Notes under the pieces: model-generated
The model's database searches: none
Told to the model about the DNA's origin: nothing
Seen by the model: only the letters and a program-made list of their open reading frames with translations
Shown: piece by piece, positions 7,192-63,010 of the stretch
How positions within the stretch are numbered: position 1 is the stretch's first letter
Layout of the letters: every line of letters starts with the position of its first letter
Program-made: the position numbers and the translations under genes
Assembly (NCBI RefSeq): GCF_017948455.1
Contig: NZ_JAFFSU010000005.1
Coordinates: 186,001 to 250,000 of the forward strand
Reading direction: 5' to 3'
DNA length: 64,000 nt
DNA from: Streptomyces sp. GESEQ-4
GTDB taxonomy: Bacteria; Actinomycetota; Actinomycetes; Streptomycetales; Streptomycetaceae

Positions 7192-7221
7192 AGGCTGTGG
7201 ACAAACGGTTCTCCACAGCCT
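7192..7221. promoter_or_regulatory. 10-bp inverted repeat carrying two DnaA-box-like sequences
   Basis: AGGCTGTGGA at 7192-7201 pairs perfectly with TCCACAGCCT at 7212-7221. The arms contain TGTGGACAA (7196-7204, a perfect Streptomyces DnaA box on the minus strand) and TTCTCCACA (7209-7217). It sits just upstream of the Lrp-type gene, so it may instead be that regulator's autoregulatory site. Confidence 0.4.
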
Positions 7222-14636: not shown

Positions 14637-14669
14637 TTGTCCACAGGTGGTCCCGGCAGGTTATCCACA
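14637..14669. promoter_or_regulatory. Two DnaA boxes upstream of paaA
   Basis: TTGTCCACA (14637-14645) and TTATCCACA (14661-14669), both on the plus strand, 24 bp apart. They match the Streptomyces and E. coli DnaA-box consensus respectively. They lie in the divergent DUF5819/paaA region. Confidence 0.5.
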
Positions 14670-22766: not shown

Positions 22767-22830
22767 TGTGGACAACTCCACAACTGTGGAAAACCCGTCA
22801 TCCGCGAACTGTGGAAACCCGTCATCCGCG
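22767..22830. repeat. DnaA-box-like direct repeats upstream of DUF2252
   Basis: AACTGTGGAAAACCCGTCAT (continuing CCGCG) at 22782-22806 is followed directly by a near-identical copy, one A shorter, at 22807-22830. Each carries a TGTGGAAA box, and a perfect minus-strand DnaA box TGTGGACAA precedes them at 22767-22775. It lies between the DUF2252 and HxlR genes, both transcribed leftward. Confidence 0.55.
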
Positions 22831-37400: not shown

Positions 37401-37655
37401 GTGCCGAAGTCACGTATCCGCAAGAAGGCCGACTACACGCCGCCGCCGGCGAAGCAGGCGACCTCCATCAAGCTCACCAGCCGCACCTGGGTCGCGCCCG
37501 TCATGCTGGCCATGTTCCTCCTCGGCCTGGCATGGATCGTGGTGTTCTACGTCACCGACGGCTCGCTGCCCATCGACAGTCTCGACAACTGGAACATCGT
37601 CGTGGGCTTCGGCTTCATCGCCGCGGGATTCGGTGTTTCGACCCAGTGGAAGTAG
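37401..37655 (+). CDS. crgA: Cell division protein CrgA
   Basis: 84 residues. Two membrane helices ([18 protein letters not shown] and [16 protein letters not shown]) and the typical N-terminus [18 protein letters not shown] (GTG start). CrgA coordinates division at the septum; in Streptomyces overproduction blocks sporulation septation by inhibiting FtsZ-ring formation, and in mycobacteria it recruits PBPs. Divergent from DUF881 over a 142-bp region. It is followed by a cluster of DnaA boxes. Confidence 0.95.
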
Positions 37656-37702
37656 CGGCCACGGGCCGGTGAACACAGTTCTGCCCAGGGCTATCCGCTG
37701 AG

Positions 37703-37903
37703 TTATCCACAGCGTCGTCCACAGTGTGGAAAGAACGACGATCTGTGGATAACCCATCGAGTGTTGACGCCGGTGTGACAGACCTACCGGCAACCGAAAG
37801 CACGTTCGCCCCCTGTGCCTGACCTGCGGAAACGCAGCTCGGGCACAGGGGGCGCAGCCATTCCCGCACAGCGTGCACTAGATCCGCCACAGACTGTGGA
37901 CAA
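37703..37903. promoter_or_regulatory. DnaA-box cluster downstream of crgA
   Basis: Five boxes in 200 bp: TTATCCACA (37703-37711), TCGTCCACA (37715-37723), TGTGGAAAG (37725-37733), TGTGGATAA (37744-37752), TGTGGACAA (37895-37903). The first four are within 50 bp and alternate in orientation. They lie in the otherwise empty region between crgA and the rhomboid gene, about 18 kb from oriC. A DnaA-titrating cluster near oriC is known in Streptomyces, and this may be it. Confidence 0.65.
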
Positions 37904-37913
37904 CGCTGGGGAT

Positions 37914-38816
37914 TCAAGTGAGCTGGGCAGTCCTCAACAGAGTCACTCCGACGATCACGACCAGCAGCAGCACACAGCTGCCGTACTGGACGAGGTTCCG
38001 CCGCTCGCGGGGGGCGTGGACCATGGCGTAGCCGATCAGGAGGCCGCCGACGAGCCCGCCGATGTGGGCCTGCCAGGCGATGCTGCTCCAGCCGAAGGTG
38101 AAGATCAGGTTGATCACCAGGAGGGCGATGATCGGCCGCATGTCGTAGTTCAGGCGGCGGACGAGGACGGCGGTGGCGCCGAAGAGGCCGAAGATGGCGC
38201 CGGATGCGCCGAGCGAGGCCGTGGTCGGGGACTCGAGCAGATAGGTCAGGGCGCTGCCCGCCAGGCCCGAGACCAGGTAGAGGGAGATGTAGCGGGCTCG
38301 GCCGAGGGCGGCTTCGAGGGGGCCGCCGAGCCACCACAGGCTGAGCATGTTGAAGGCGATGTGCCAGATTTCCTCGTGCGTGAACATCGAGGTGAACAGG
38401 CGGTACCACTCGCCTGCCGCGACGCCTTCGGTGGGCGTGAAGGGGGCCGGGGGCCATTCGCCGATGAGGAACAGGTCGCCCAGGAGCGTCGACGATGACT
38501 GGACGGCGATGAAGACCGCGAGGTTGATCCCGATGAGGATCTTGGTGAGCAGTCGGGGGTCGGCAGTGACCGTGCCGCCGGCGATGGTGCGGGGCCGGGA
38601 CGCGGTGGGCGAGACGCCGGTGCCGGTGCCTTCGCGGACGCAGTTGGGGCATTGGAAGCCGACTGAGGCGCTGACCATGCACTCGGGGCAGATGGGGCGC
38701 TCGCAGCGGGTGCAGCGCACGCCGGTCTCGCGGTCCGGGTGCCGGTAGCAGACAGGTGCGCTCTGCGCGGGGCCCTGGTCCTCTGGGCCCTGTGGGCTGC
38801 CTGGCGCCTGGTCCAT
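37914..38816 (-). CDS. Rhomboid family intramembrane serine protease
   Basis: 300 residues. N-terminal zinc-binding B-box-like part with CYRHPDRETGVRCTRC and CPNC, then six or more membrane helices. The catalytic Ser is in GASGAIFGLFG, the His in WQAHIGGLVGG, and TSMFTHEEIWHIAFNML matches the conserved HxxxN region. It cleaves membrane-spanning substrates within the bilayer; substrate unknown. ATG at 38816 has GAGGGGATCCC before it, so the longer open frame is rejected. Codes leftward, convergent with crgA. Confidence 0.9.
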   Translation of the reverse strand: MDQAPGSPQGPEDQGPAQSAPVCYRHPDRETGVRCTRCERPICPECMVSASVGFQCPNCVREGTGTGVSPTASRPRTIAGGTVTADPRLLTKILIGINLAVFIAVQSSSTLLGDLFLIGEWPPAPFTPTEGVAAGEWYRLFTSMFTHEEIWHIAFNMLSLWWLGGPLEAALGRARYISLYLVSGLAGSALTYLLESPTTASLGASGAIFGLFGATAVLVRRLNYDMRPIIALLVINLIFTFGWSSIAWQAHIGGLVGGLLIGYAMVHAPRERRNLVQYGSCVLLLVVIVGVTLLRTAQLT

Positions 38817-38847
38817 GGGATCCCCTCGTCTCGTACGCAGCTGAACC

Positions 38848-38890
38848 GCCCCGCCCATCCTTACGGATGAGCGGGGCGTTTGGTTCCCTG
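38848..38890. terminator. Hairpin between rhomboid and cyclophilin genes
   Basis: CGCCCCGCCCATCC stem against GGATGAGCGGGGCG, followed by TTTGGTT. It probably terminates the cyclophilin transcript (minus strand) ahead of the rhomboid gene. Confidence 0.65.
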
Positions 38891-56159: not shown

Positions 56160-56850
56160 ACGGCACTGACAGTAGGTGCCTCTCGGGGTCAAGTCGTGAC
56201 GAGGGGCAGTCGGGCGCCGAAGAGCGAGTTGTGCACAGGACCCACTTCGAAGCGAATTCCGCTCTCTCTCTAGTTGGGAGTAGTAGTAGGGCCTGTGGAT
56301 ACCGTGGATAACCCTGTTTTCCCAGGTCAGCGGCAAGATTTTGTCCACGGACCCTGTGGGTGACACCGGTGGACAACTAGGCGAATCTGTGGAGAACGGA
56401 AAGTTCTGCACACCCCATGCACAGCCTGGGGTGACTTCTCCCCAGGGCTGTCCCCAGCTTTACCCAGCTTTCCCACAGACCAACCCGGCAGCTTGATGTG
56501 ACGCCTTTCACTCGTCCCGGTGAGGAGGCGCGTCGCGTTGCCGAACAGTGGACAGCGGTGTGGAGAAGCGGGCCATCCTTGGGGACAACTGGCCCCAGCC
56601 TGTGGGTTGCCGGTGGACAACTTCGTGCACACCCTGTGGATCTTTTCGCTGTCCACAGTCTGTGGAGATCGTTCGTCCACCGATCCACAACCACGTGAGC
56701 TGGCTTGATGGTCTGTCAGCGGAGTCTGCTGTGGACAGGATCTGGACAACTCCCCAGTCCCCAGGGTGTGGACGGCAGAAACTCACCGAATCTGTGGAGA
56801 GTGGCCGTAACCCGGCACGTAATCGAACACCAGGTGGCTGCGGCATAACG
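56160..56850. other. oriC: Chromosomal origin of replication oriC
   Basis: The non-coding region between dnaN and dnaA holds about 20 DnaA boxes in both orientations. Examples: TGTGGATAC 56294, TTGTCCACG 56341, GGTGGACAA 56368, TGTGGAGAA 56388 and 56559, GGTGGACAA 56612, CTGTCCACA 56649, TGTGGAGAT 56661, CGATCCACA 56681, TGTGGACAG 56730, TCTGGACAA 56741, TGTGGACGG 56767, TGTGGAGAG 56793. They fit the Streptomyces consensus TTGTCCACA and its reverse complement with one or two mismatches. No AT-rich 13-mers like those of E. coli are seen, as usual for Streptomyces. Confidence 0.95.
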
Positions 56851-56908: not shown

Positions 56909-58819
56909 TCAGCCGTTTTTGATGCGGTTCGTCAGCTCGGTCACCTGGTTGTAGATGGAGCGCCGCTCGGCCATCAGATTGCGGATCTTGCGGTCGGCGT
57001 GCATCACCGTCGTGTGGTCGCGGCCGCCGAACAGCGCGCCGATCTTCGGCAGCGACAGGTCCGTGAGCTCGCGGCACAGGTACATGGCGATCTGGCGGGC
57101 TGTGACGAGCTGGCGGCCGCGCGAGCTGCCGCACAGATCCTCGACCGTGAGCCCGAAGTAGTCGGCGGTCGCGCTCATGATGGCCGTCGAGGTGATCTCC
57201 GGCGTCGAGTCCTCACCGCCGGGGATGAGGTCCTTGAGGACGATCTCGGTCAGGCCCAGGTCCACCGGCTGCCGGTTGAGCGACGCGAACGCCGTCACCC
57301 GGATCAGCGCGCCCTCTAGCTCGCGGATGTTGCGCGAGATCCGGGAGGCGATGAACTCGAGCACCTCCGGCGGGGCGTTGAGCTGCTCCTGCACCGCCTT
57401 CTTGCGGAGGATGGCGATACGGGTCTCCAGCTCGGGCGGCTGGACGTCGGTGATCAGGCCCCACTCGAAACGGTTCCGCAGCCGGTCCTCCAGGGTCACC
57501 AGCTGCTTCGGCGGCCGGTCGCTGGAGAGCACGATCTGCTTGTTGGCGTTGTGGAGGGTGTTGAAGGTGTGGAAGAACTCCTCCTGCGTCGACTCCTTGT
57601 CCGCGAGGAACTGGATGTCGTCGACGAGCAGGATGTCCATCTCGCGGTACCGCTTGCGGAAGCTGTCGCCCTTGCCGTCGCGGATGGAGTTGATGAACTC
57701 GTTGGTGAACTCCTCCGAGCTCACGTACCGCACGCGCGTGCCCGGGTAGAGGCTGCGCGCGTAGTGCCCGATCGCGTGCAGCAGGTGCGTCTTGCCGAGC
57801 CCCGACTCCCCATAGATGAAGAGGGGGTTGTACGCCTTCGCCGGCGCCTCGGCGACGGCCACTGCGGCCGCGTGCGCGAAGCGGTTGGAGGCGCCGATGA
57901 CGAACGTGTCGAAGAGGTACTTCGGGTTCAGGCGTGCGGTCGGCTCGCCGGGGCCGGTCGCCGGCGCGGGCTGCGCGGCCAGTGGGCCGGGGGCGCCGGT
58001 CGTGGGGAGCGTGGGTCCGACCGGTCCGCCGCGATGCACATGCCCGGACCCGGACGGCGGCTCGGGCCGCTCCCGGCGGGCGTCACGCTGGTCGTAGTCG
58101 GAGCGGGACTGCTCGTAGTCGGAGCGCTGCGTGTCGTAGGAGGGGCGCTCCATGGACTGCGGACGGTAGTCCTGGGAGGGCTGGTGGTACGAGTCCTGGG
58201 ACGGCGGGGAGTACGAGTCCTGTGAGCCGTAGGAGTCCTGGGACCGGTACGAGTCCTGTGACGGTGACGCGTACGGGTCGCGCTCCGGGAAACCGAGCCG
58301 CTGCTGCTGCCAGCCGTAGTCGTCCTGGGATCCGCGGGGCCAGGCGCCGGGTTCGGGGCGCTGGTATTCCGAGGGGTACGCGGGGCGGGCCGTCGGGAGC
58401 TGGTCCGTGCGGGGCGGGGGCAGCTGGTCGCTCGGGGTGCCGGAGCGGTCGTCGGCGCGGTGGCGGCCGTAGCCCTCGTACTGGGAGGAGGGGAGTTCCG
58501 GTTCTTCGTAACGGGGGCGCGCGGGCGGGGCCGGGGGTTCGCCGACGGAGTCGTCGACGGTGATCGCGATGCGGATCGGGCGGCCGCATTCGCGGCTCAG
58601 CGTCTCGCTGACGATCGGTGCGAGACGGCCCTCCAGTACGCCCTTCGCGAATTCGTTCGGTACGGCGAGCAGGGCGGTGTCCGCGACCAGTGCCAGGGGC
58701 TGGCAGCGGCGGATCCAGCGCTCGTCCTTCGCTTCGACGCCCTGCCCGCGGCCCTCCCCGAGGAGTTGCTCCAGTACTCGTGGCCACACTGCGGCAAGAT
58801 CGGCAGGTACGTCAGCCAC
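56909..58819 (-). CDS. dnaA: Chromosomal replication initiator DnaA
   Basis: 636 residues, larger than E. coli DnaA because domain II is very long. Domain I ([20 protein letters not shown]) binds DnaB; domain II is Pro/Tyr/Ser/Gln-rich with repeated QDSY units at about residues 185-220; domain III is AAA+ with [17 protein letters not shown] and DDIQFLADK; domain IV has [20 protein letters not shown] and [11 protein letters not shown] for DnaA-box binding. GTG at 58819 is the start; the longer frame from 58912 contains the -10 region (58911-58916) and cannot be translated in full. Autorepressed by two DnaA boxes at the promoter. Confidence 0.97.
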
Positions 58820-62983: not shown

Positions 62984-63010
62984 TTGTCCACAGAGGTGGA
63001 ATTCTCCACA
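62984..63010. promoter_or_regulatory. DnaA boxes upstream of parA
   Basis: TTGTCCACA (62984-62992, exact consensus) and TTCTCCACA (63002-63010), 9 bp apart. They sit in the parA leader. The surrounding intergenic stretch 62710-63046 otherwise shows only the parS site. Confidence 0.55.

Follow-up and report, generated by a model that had tools for sequence, protein, structure and literature searches.

The non-coding gap between crgA and a convergent rhomboid-family gene, close to the replication origin of a Streptomyces chromosome, carries a cluster of DnaA boxes that is real and stands far above chance. The conservation of these crgA-side boxes extends past Streptomyces to other families and classes, and many actinobacteria show a similar arrangement at this position, which suggests that an ancient element controls when chromosomes are copied. 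Judging from sequence comparison, we favour with moderate confidence the reading that the gap is an origin-proximal, non-coding control locus that would bind DnaA and limit its availability at origins; titration of DnaA is probable and a DARS-like activity is possible. To our knowledge, the control of DnaA in actinobacteria is still poorly understood. A DnaA-box locus found at one place in many families of the phylum, with a recurring geometry and a likely co-factor site, makes this control tractable.

The window is the whole stretch of 64,000 nucleotides that was analysed, corresponding to positions 186001-250000 of C45, the 386-kb contig that contains oriC in this 9.24-Mb draft genome, whose closest relatives by crgA belong to Streptomyces. 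In window coordinates, the features are the following.

37401-37655, plus strand: crgA (Pfam CrgA, 3.9e-30).
37703-37711, plus strand: DnaA box A, TTATCCACA, exact, starting 48 bp after the crgA stop.
37715-37723, plus strand: DnaA box B, TCGTCCACA, one mismatch, 12 bp after A.
37725-37733, minus strand: weak DnaA box C, CTTTCCACA, two mismatches against TTRTCCACA, from a looser scan; head-to-head with B across a 1-bp gap.
37744-37752, minus strand: DnaA box D, TTATCCACA, exact, from the box scan.
37764-37779, unstranded: conserved TTGACGCCGGTGTGAC, beside the box core.
37808-37853, unstranded: GC-rich inverted repeat with 12-bp arms, read from the sequence, with no T run; a possible 3'-end hairpin for crgA and the rhomboid gene.
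37895-37903, minus strand: DnaA box E, TTGTCCACA, exact, 151 bp after D.
37914-38858, minus strand: rhomboid-family membrane protease gene (Pfam Rhomboid, 1.8e-37), convergent with crgA.
56229-56749, unstranded: oriC DnaA-box array, next to dnaA and about 18.5 kb from the crgA cluster.

The gap measures 258 bp (37656-37913) and contains all five boxes; since crgA and the rhomboid gene both end at the cluster, the boxes sit at two 3' ends. The dnaA domain is found at C45:243446-243931 (window 57446-57931). A preliminary description of the window had announced a group of four boxes within 50 bp and a further one, in a gene-free region adjoining crgA and 18 kb from oriC. The scans, the gene ends at 37655 and 37914, the CrgA domain match and the distance to the oriC array bear this out, with two of the five boxes (B and C) being degenerate. 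A second origin of the oriC type would combine many boxes with an AT-rich unwinding element; to the eye, this five-box locus shows no AT-rich stretch. Dinucleotide shuffles of 37656-37913 (n = 2000) averaged 0.003 exact boxes and, with up to one mismatch allowed, 0.127; the three exact boxes, or the four within one mismatch, observed in the gap were not equalled in any of the 2000.

Conservation was followed in three sets of crgA loci: 80 named Streptomyces loci, which are the best 80 of 563 confirmed; 69 Streptomycetaceae loci from 150 genomes (29 best matches besides the window's own and 40 picked by hand), overlapping the former set (L127 with L087, L129 with L032); and, out of 190 crgA-bearing genomes, 68 further loci of the class, of which 28 are best matches and 40 were hand-picked. 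A further 40 loci of other classes come from 40 of 47 crgA-bearing genomes, and the loci outside Streptomyces form a non-random sample. Boxes A (plus strand) and D (minus strand) occur as exact TTATCCACA in 80/80 Streptomyces loci, soon after crgA and 29-66 bp apart, separated by a sequence that varies in both length and letters. The minus-strand position of box E, most often 149 bp further on (n = 80), is held by TTGTCCACA in 76 of the 80, by TTTTCCACA in three and by TTATCCACA in one. At least two boxes with at most one mismatch lie within 200 bp 3' of crgA in 80/80 Streptomyces, 65/69 Streptomycetaceae and 52/68 other class loci, and at least one in 62 of the latter 68. The mean number of exact boxes in these first 200 bp is 2.21 in Streptomyces (n = 80; shuffles 0.001), 2.22 in Streptomycetaceae (n = 69; shuffles 0.004) and 0.69 in the other loci of the class (n = 68; shuffles 0.003). 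Within 250 bp 3' of crgA in other classes, at least one box was found in 27/40 loci (control 4/40) and at least two in 18/40 (control 1/40), the other 13 of 40 having none within that distance. The first 200 bp are box-free in none of the 80 Streptomyces loci and in four of the 69 Streptomycetaceae loci (L116, L175, L183, L184), all four of which have boxes just past 200 bp or further; among the six such loci of the class (L144, L150, L221, L229, L230, L235), L150 alone has boxes just beyond that limit. The box-less loci of the class and of other classes indicate that the cluster is dispensable in some lineages.

The inverted exact pair TTATCCACA-N14-44-TGTGGATAA is present in 141 of the 150 Streptomycetaceae genomes, in most of them as a single hit (control 0). 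Eight of the nine genomes that lack it have a pair at the crgA locus that is too widely spaced or has one box altered, G010 being the sole one without such a pair. In six genomes inspected by eye (G006, G039, G032, G112, G082, G100) the pair adjoins crgA; in G015 the only place found is not at crgA. Among the matches listed, a number of genomes, chiefly in genera g14 and g3, have several, some of them overlapping. In the wider class, the palindromic pair TTNTCCMCANTGKGGANAA occurs in 40/197 genomes, once each (control 0), and its places in G187, G159, G161, G310, G210 and G170 adjoin crgA when compared by eye.

The locus is generally near the origin: crgA lies at a median of 22.5 kb from dnaA (range 12.8-177 kb; 32 genomes, G235 left out) and at 12.8-57 kb in 30 of the 32. 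In G239 it is 86 kb away and the locus (L229) has no box in the box listing. Genome-wide, the exact TTRTCCACA counts 73 occurrences against 11 for a reversed-pattern control, and 19 of the 73 stand on the oriC contig, as could be expected if boxes were dense everywhere near oriC and the cluster had no function of its own. We hold this explanation to be very improbable: when the surroundings of the crgA stop are divided into 15 bins of 200 bp, hardly any exact box falls outside the first two bins on the 3' side, whichever of the three locus sets is taken, and three boxes remain in G299 (L239), where crgA is 177 kb from dnaA. Moreover, the stretch that follows pheA (with serS assumed to be the next gene) has no exact box in any of 10 genomes of other families and a one-mismatch box in just one of them. 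These same 10 genomes all keep at least one box with at most one mismatch near crgA (G205 being locus L256).

The position between two 3' ends also lends itself to a transcriptional explanation, in which a DnaA roadblock or an RNA hairpin would end the convergent crgA and rhomboid transcripts and replication control would be incidental. The strand folds better than 200/200 shuffles (z -6.13), through the box arms and the separate GC hairpin, the box arms being complementary because the same site stands inverted. At base 3, the same letter stands in both members of the head-to-head pair in 22/46 cases, more than the 12.6 expected, and a 1989 paper deals, by its title, with DnaA boxes in transcription termination. 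At base 7, however, agreement falls to 14/46 against 19.5 expected if the boxes were independent, so that pairing is broken, as would be the case if a strong and a weak site had been retained. Of 150 Streptomycetaceae loci, including one from the window's own genome, 21 have unlike boxes at A and D, the GC hairpin at 37808-37853 stands apart from the boxes, and boxes also lie 3' of crgA in loci with no rhomboid match in the fetched stretch. We consider this explanation unlikely, and an RNA hairpin as the main function was rejected despite the strong fold, base 7 speaking against it and base 3 leaning in its favour. A scan of the crgA-rhomboid region gave no terminator-like hit. A small RNA using TTGACG as its -35 element was rejected as well, since no sigma-70-like promoter was found near the cluster and Rfam recognised only three tRNAs in the window.

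The preliminary description had also linked the boxes, through crgA, to cell division. A link of this kind, with DnaA acting in cis on crgA expression and septation, could appeal to the start of box A just past the crgA stop and to the boxes following crgA in most loci examined. It is not supported by the arrangement of the locus, where the boxes occupy 3' ends with no sigma-70-like promoter nearby, nor by four genomes of one family (G302, G191, G275, G311). In these, the palindrome described below overlaps the end of the rhomboid gene and is followed by DnaA-like boxes, with one or two boxes within one mismatch in 80 bp (L264, L265, L266, L268); the rhomboid assignment comes from Pfam for L264 and L265, and the window's rhomboid matches all four. 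Their crgA genes lie about 40 kb from this module (contigs taken as circular, except for G311, where this is unneeded), and the 3.2 kb around them show no rhomboid match and no box cluster, the boxes nearby being one exact (L404) and one with a mismatch (L407), each about 750-800 bp off. The parting of the module from crgA argues against a crgA-specific role, and we give this link very little credence.

Beside the box core, the Streptomyces consensus TTGACGCCGGTGTGAC holds a 9-of-10 match to the palindrome TNACACNNGTGTNA; in the window, TGACGCCGGTGTGA (37765-37778) within it matches nine of the ten fixed positions. The distance from the core minus-strand box to the start of the motif TTGACRY is exactly 11 bp in 76/80 Streptomyces loci and within 40 bp in 77/80, and this latter distance is kept in 43/69 Streptomycetaceae loci (control 1/149). 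A palindrome like TTACACNNGTGTAA is present 3' of crgA in 29 of the 68 class loci when at least 10 of 12 positions must match (controls 0/68 and 0/64), and in 23 of these 29 the start of the palindrome is followed at 14-16 bp by that of a loose box match (hand count). The exact TTACACNNGTGTAA is rare, being found in 37/194 genomes (reversed pattern 6/194). A second DNA-binding protein probably occupies the palindrome and would shape or time the DnaA complex, a role held at datA and DARS2 of Escherichia coli by IHF.

Exact TTACACNNGTGTAA is also encountered upstream of nrdR and a class II ribonucleotide reductase gene (identified by Pfam on L258 and by likeness elsewhere). Among 26 readable nrdR loci out of 30, 18 have a DnaA-like box 0-2 bp after the palindrome (control 0/26). 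These nrdR palindrome loci belong to many families of the class (L248, L249, L250, L252, L253, L258, L260, L261; L318-L347). To the eye, the DnaA-like box overlaps the second of two NrdR-box-like repeats, which puts its status as a DnaA site in doubt; across six Streptomyces regions upstream of nrdR, the palindrome scored no higher than 6-7 of 10. DnaA regulation of nrdR was rejected on account of this overlap and of the six Streptomyces regions without the palindrome, and the palindrome itself was rejected as an NrdR box since it lies between the two repeats and differs from both (by eye). Besides nrdR, TTACACNNGTGTAA stands near WhiB-family genes (L246, L262), about 115 bp upstream of one of them in L262. 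A similar palindrome site beside a TTGACT-like hexamer was noticed by eye in L267 and L269-L274, where WhiB-like neighbours are suspected. The open-licence literature yielded neither the palindrome strings nor a match for nrdRJ together with DnaA.

The geometry of the core was counted with a loose box pattern in the same three sets of 80 Streptomyces, 69 Streptomycetaceae and 68 class loci. A same-strand spacing of 12 or 13 bp is the commonest in each set, and a head-to-head spacing of 10 bp recurs in 28/68 class and 18/69 Streptomycetaceae loci. The core thus tends to [+]12-13[+]10[-], and the window core, when reversed, reads [+]10[-]12[-]. The strict triplet [+]12/13[+]10[-] was recovered in 16/68 class, 14/69 Streptomycetaceae and 6/80 Streptomyces loci; in Streptomyces, the window included, box C is often too degenerate for this test.

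This order of boxes recalls the DARS loci, which stimulate initiation in E. coli. Scanning intergenic stretches of MG1655 gave, besides many weak matches, the triplet [+]14[-]12[-] in the bioD-uvrB gap and a matching triplet upstream of mutH, which we take to be the neighbourhoods of DARS1 and DARS2, respectively. According to the passages concerned with these loci in PMC5742627, DARS box I is opposite to boxes II and III and the head-to-head contact is a prominent feature; DARS loci are located between oriC and terC, and DARS2 requires IHF and Fis. DARS1, DARS2 and the window have in common a three-box core in which, read on the minus strand here, box I (C) opposes the other two, II (B) and III (A), which stand 12 bp apart. 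DnaA-ADP might accordingly assemble head-to-head on the core and lose its ADP, and apo-DnaA would then reload ATP and promote initiation, a reactivation for which the recurrence of the 10-bp step also speaks. The head-to-head step, however, is 14 bp in DARS (5-bp gap) and 10 bp here (1-bp gap), the crgA cluster lies close to oriC, unlike the E. coli loci, neither D nor E has been matched to a box of DARS, and few Streptomyces loci carry the strict triplet. On the sequence, the core resembles DARS in box order and in one of two spacings, which does not amount to DARS membership, and reactivation of this kind appears rather improbable to us.

The datA locus of E. coli offers a second comparison. 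In the part of PMC5742627 that describes it, datA is an intergenic box cluster downstream of genes, with an IHF site and essential boxes all in one orientation. In E. coli, datA promotes the hydrolysis of ATP bound to DnaA and holds back untimely initiation. Both datA and the crgA cluster are intergenic, lie 3' of genes and have a site, putative at crgA, for a second DNA-binding protein, IHF in the case of datA. The boxes here are of mixed orientation, A and B on the plus strand against C, D and E on the minus strand, and with all five counted the sequence does not place the cluster with datA.

Streptomyces DnaA-box clusters named H69, H24 and D78 were reportedly described by Smulczyk-Krawczyszyn et al. 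in 2006 (J Bacteriol 188:6184), where D78 is said to have been tested in vivo. From positions on Streptomyces coelicolor cosmids, we presume that the crgA-rhomboid cluster is H69, and we take the pheA-serS cluster to be D78. These are intergenic clusters of near-consensus boxes around oriC, a description that also holds for the crgA cluster, and the three best non-oriC clusters of the contig (crgA-rhomboid, MATE-dnaB and serS-pheA) fit the three published ones. The comparison with a published cluster proposed in the preliminary description was apt: the crgA locus is probably one of them, and the crgA cluster as such has probably been published already for Streptomyces. Weighted scores on C45 reach 8 for serS-pheA (326482), 7 for both the crgA cluster and oriC, and 6 for MATE-dnaB (278608), which makes the crgA cluster second on the contig, tied with oriC. 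The boxes of the crgA cluster are nearer to the consensus than those of oriC, since the scan of the oriC array gives one-mismatch boxes only. The top cluster, also the strongest outside oriC (G000:C45:326452-326774; L004, L005), lies on the other side of oriC at 84 kb; PheA was identified by Pfam, and serS, the MATE-type transporter gene and dnaB were named by eye. The serS-pheA cluster is present in 11/11 Streptomyces, namely in the window's genome and in 10/10 others with two to four exact boxes each.

Streptomyces clusters and, in another Gram-positive, those of Bacillus subtilis (Okumura et al. 2012) are cited as repressing untimely initiation in the passages of PMC10950094, PMC4585315 and PMC5742627 that mention them. 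Titles and opening lines of abstracts retrieved from the open-licence literature with 'DnaA box' and crgA contained nothing concerning this cluster. Within the same literature, the partial texts among the matches listed gave no account of the conservation beyond Streptomyces, of the core geometry or of the palindrome.

Returning to the DnaA-limiting locus that we favour, we infer from these comparisons the occupancy by DnaA, the sign of its effect and the co-factor. DnaA would fill the high-affinity boxes A and D first, spread from them to B and C, which are weaker, and perhaps extend as far as box E some 150 bp away. In the manner of E. coli datA and of the published Streptomyces clusters, the locus would draw DnaA off new origins and so restrain re-initiation; its early duplication after initiation and its better consensus than oriC are the reasons why it should do so. 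With a box order nearer to DARS than to datA, the sign of the effect could also be the opposite, a stimulating one. That DnaA binds here and modulates initiation, as the preliminary description had proposed, gains indirect support from the exact boxes in every Streptomyces locus, the recurring geometry, the origin-proximal position and the published clusters; its crgA and division part finds no support.

On a longer evolutionary scale, we would tentatively, and with more doubt than conviction, see in the module an ancestral actinobacterial DnaA-control element. It would combine a DARS-order core with a protein site of the TNACACNNGTGTNA type, also placed beside a DnaA-like box upstream of nrdR and coupling DnaA to dNTP supply; Streptomyces would have gained the pheA-serS cluster later. 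If true, such an element would be the counterpart of the roles played in E. coli by datA, DARS, IHF and Fis. Should serS-pheA be D78, the cluster most tested and probably the one of the published in vivo experiment would be the younger, and the crgA cluster the old one.

Other box arrangements came to light along with these. A further cluster, at G000:C45:278608-278870, lies between the MATE-type transporter gene and dnaB (by eye), and the window contains four smaller DnaA-box pairs with one or two exact boxes each (14637-14669, 22767-22793, 7196-7217 and 62984-63010). In genus g14 of the Streptomycetaceae, a second similar inverted pair of 56 bp, with an ATGATC...GTTCG-like middle, stands away from crgA (G077:C31:52330, G087:C1:4741641, G143:C1:3550998, G069:C1:3762023, G053:C21:1393 and G061:C6:1522).
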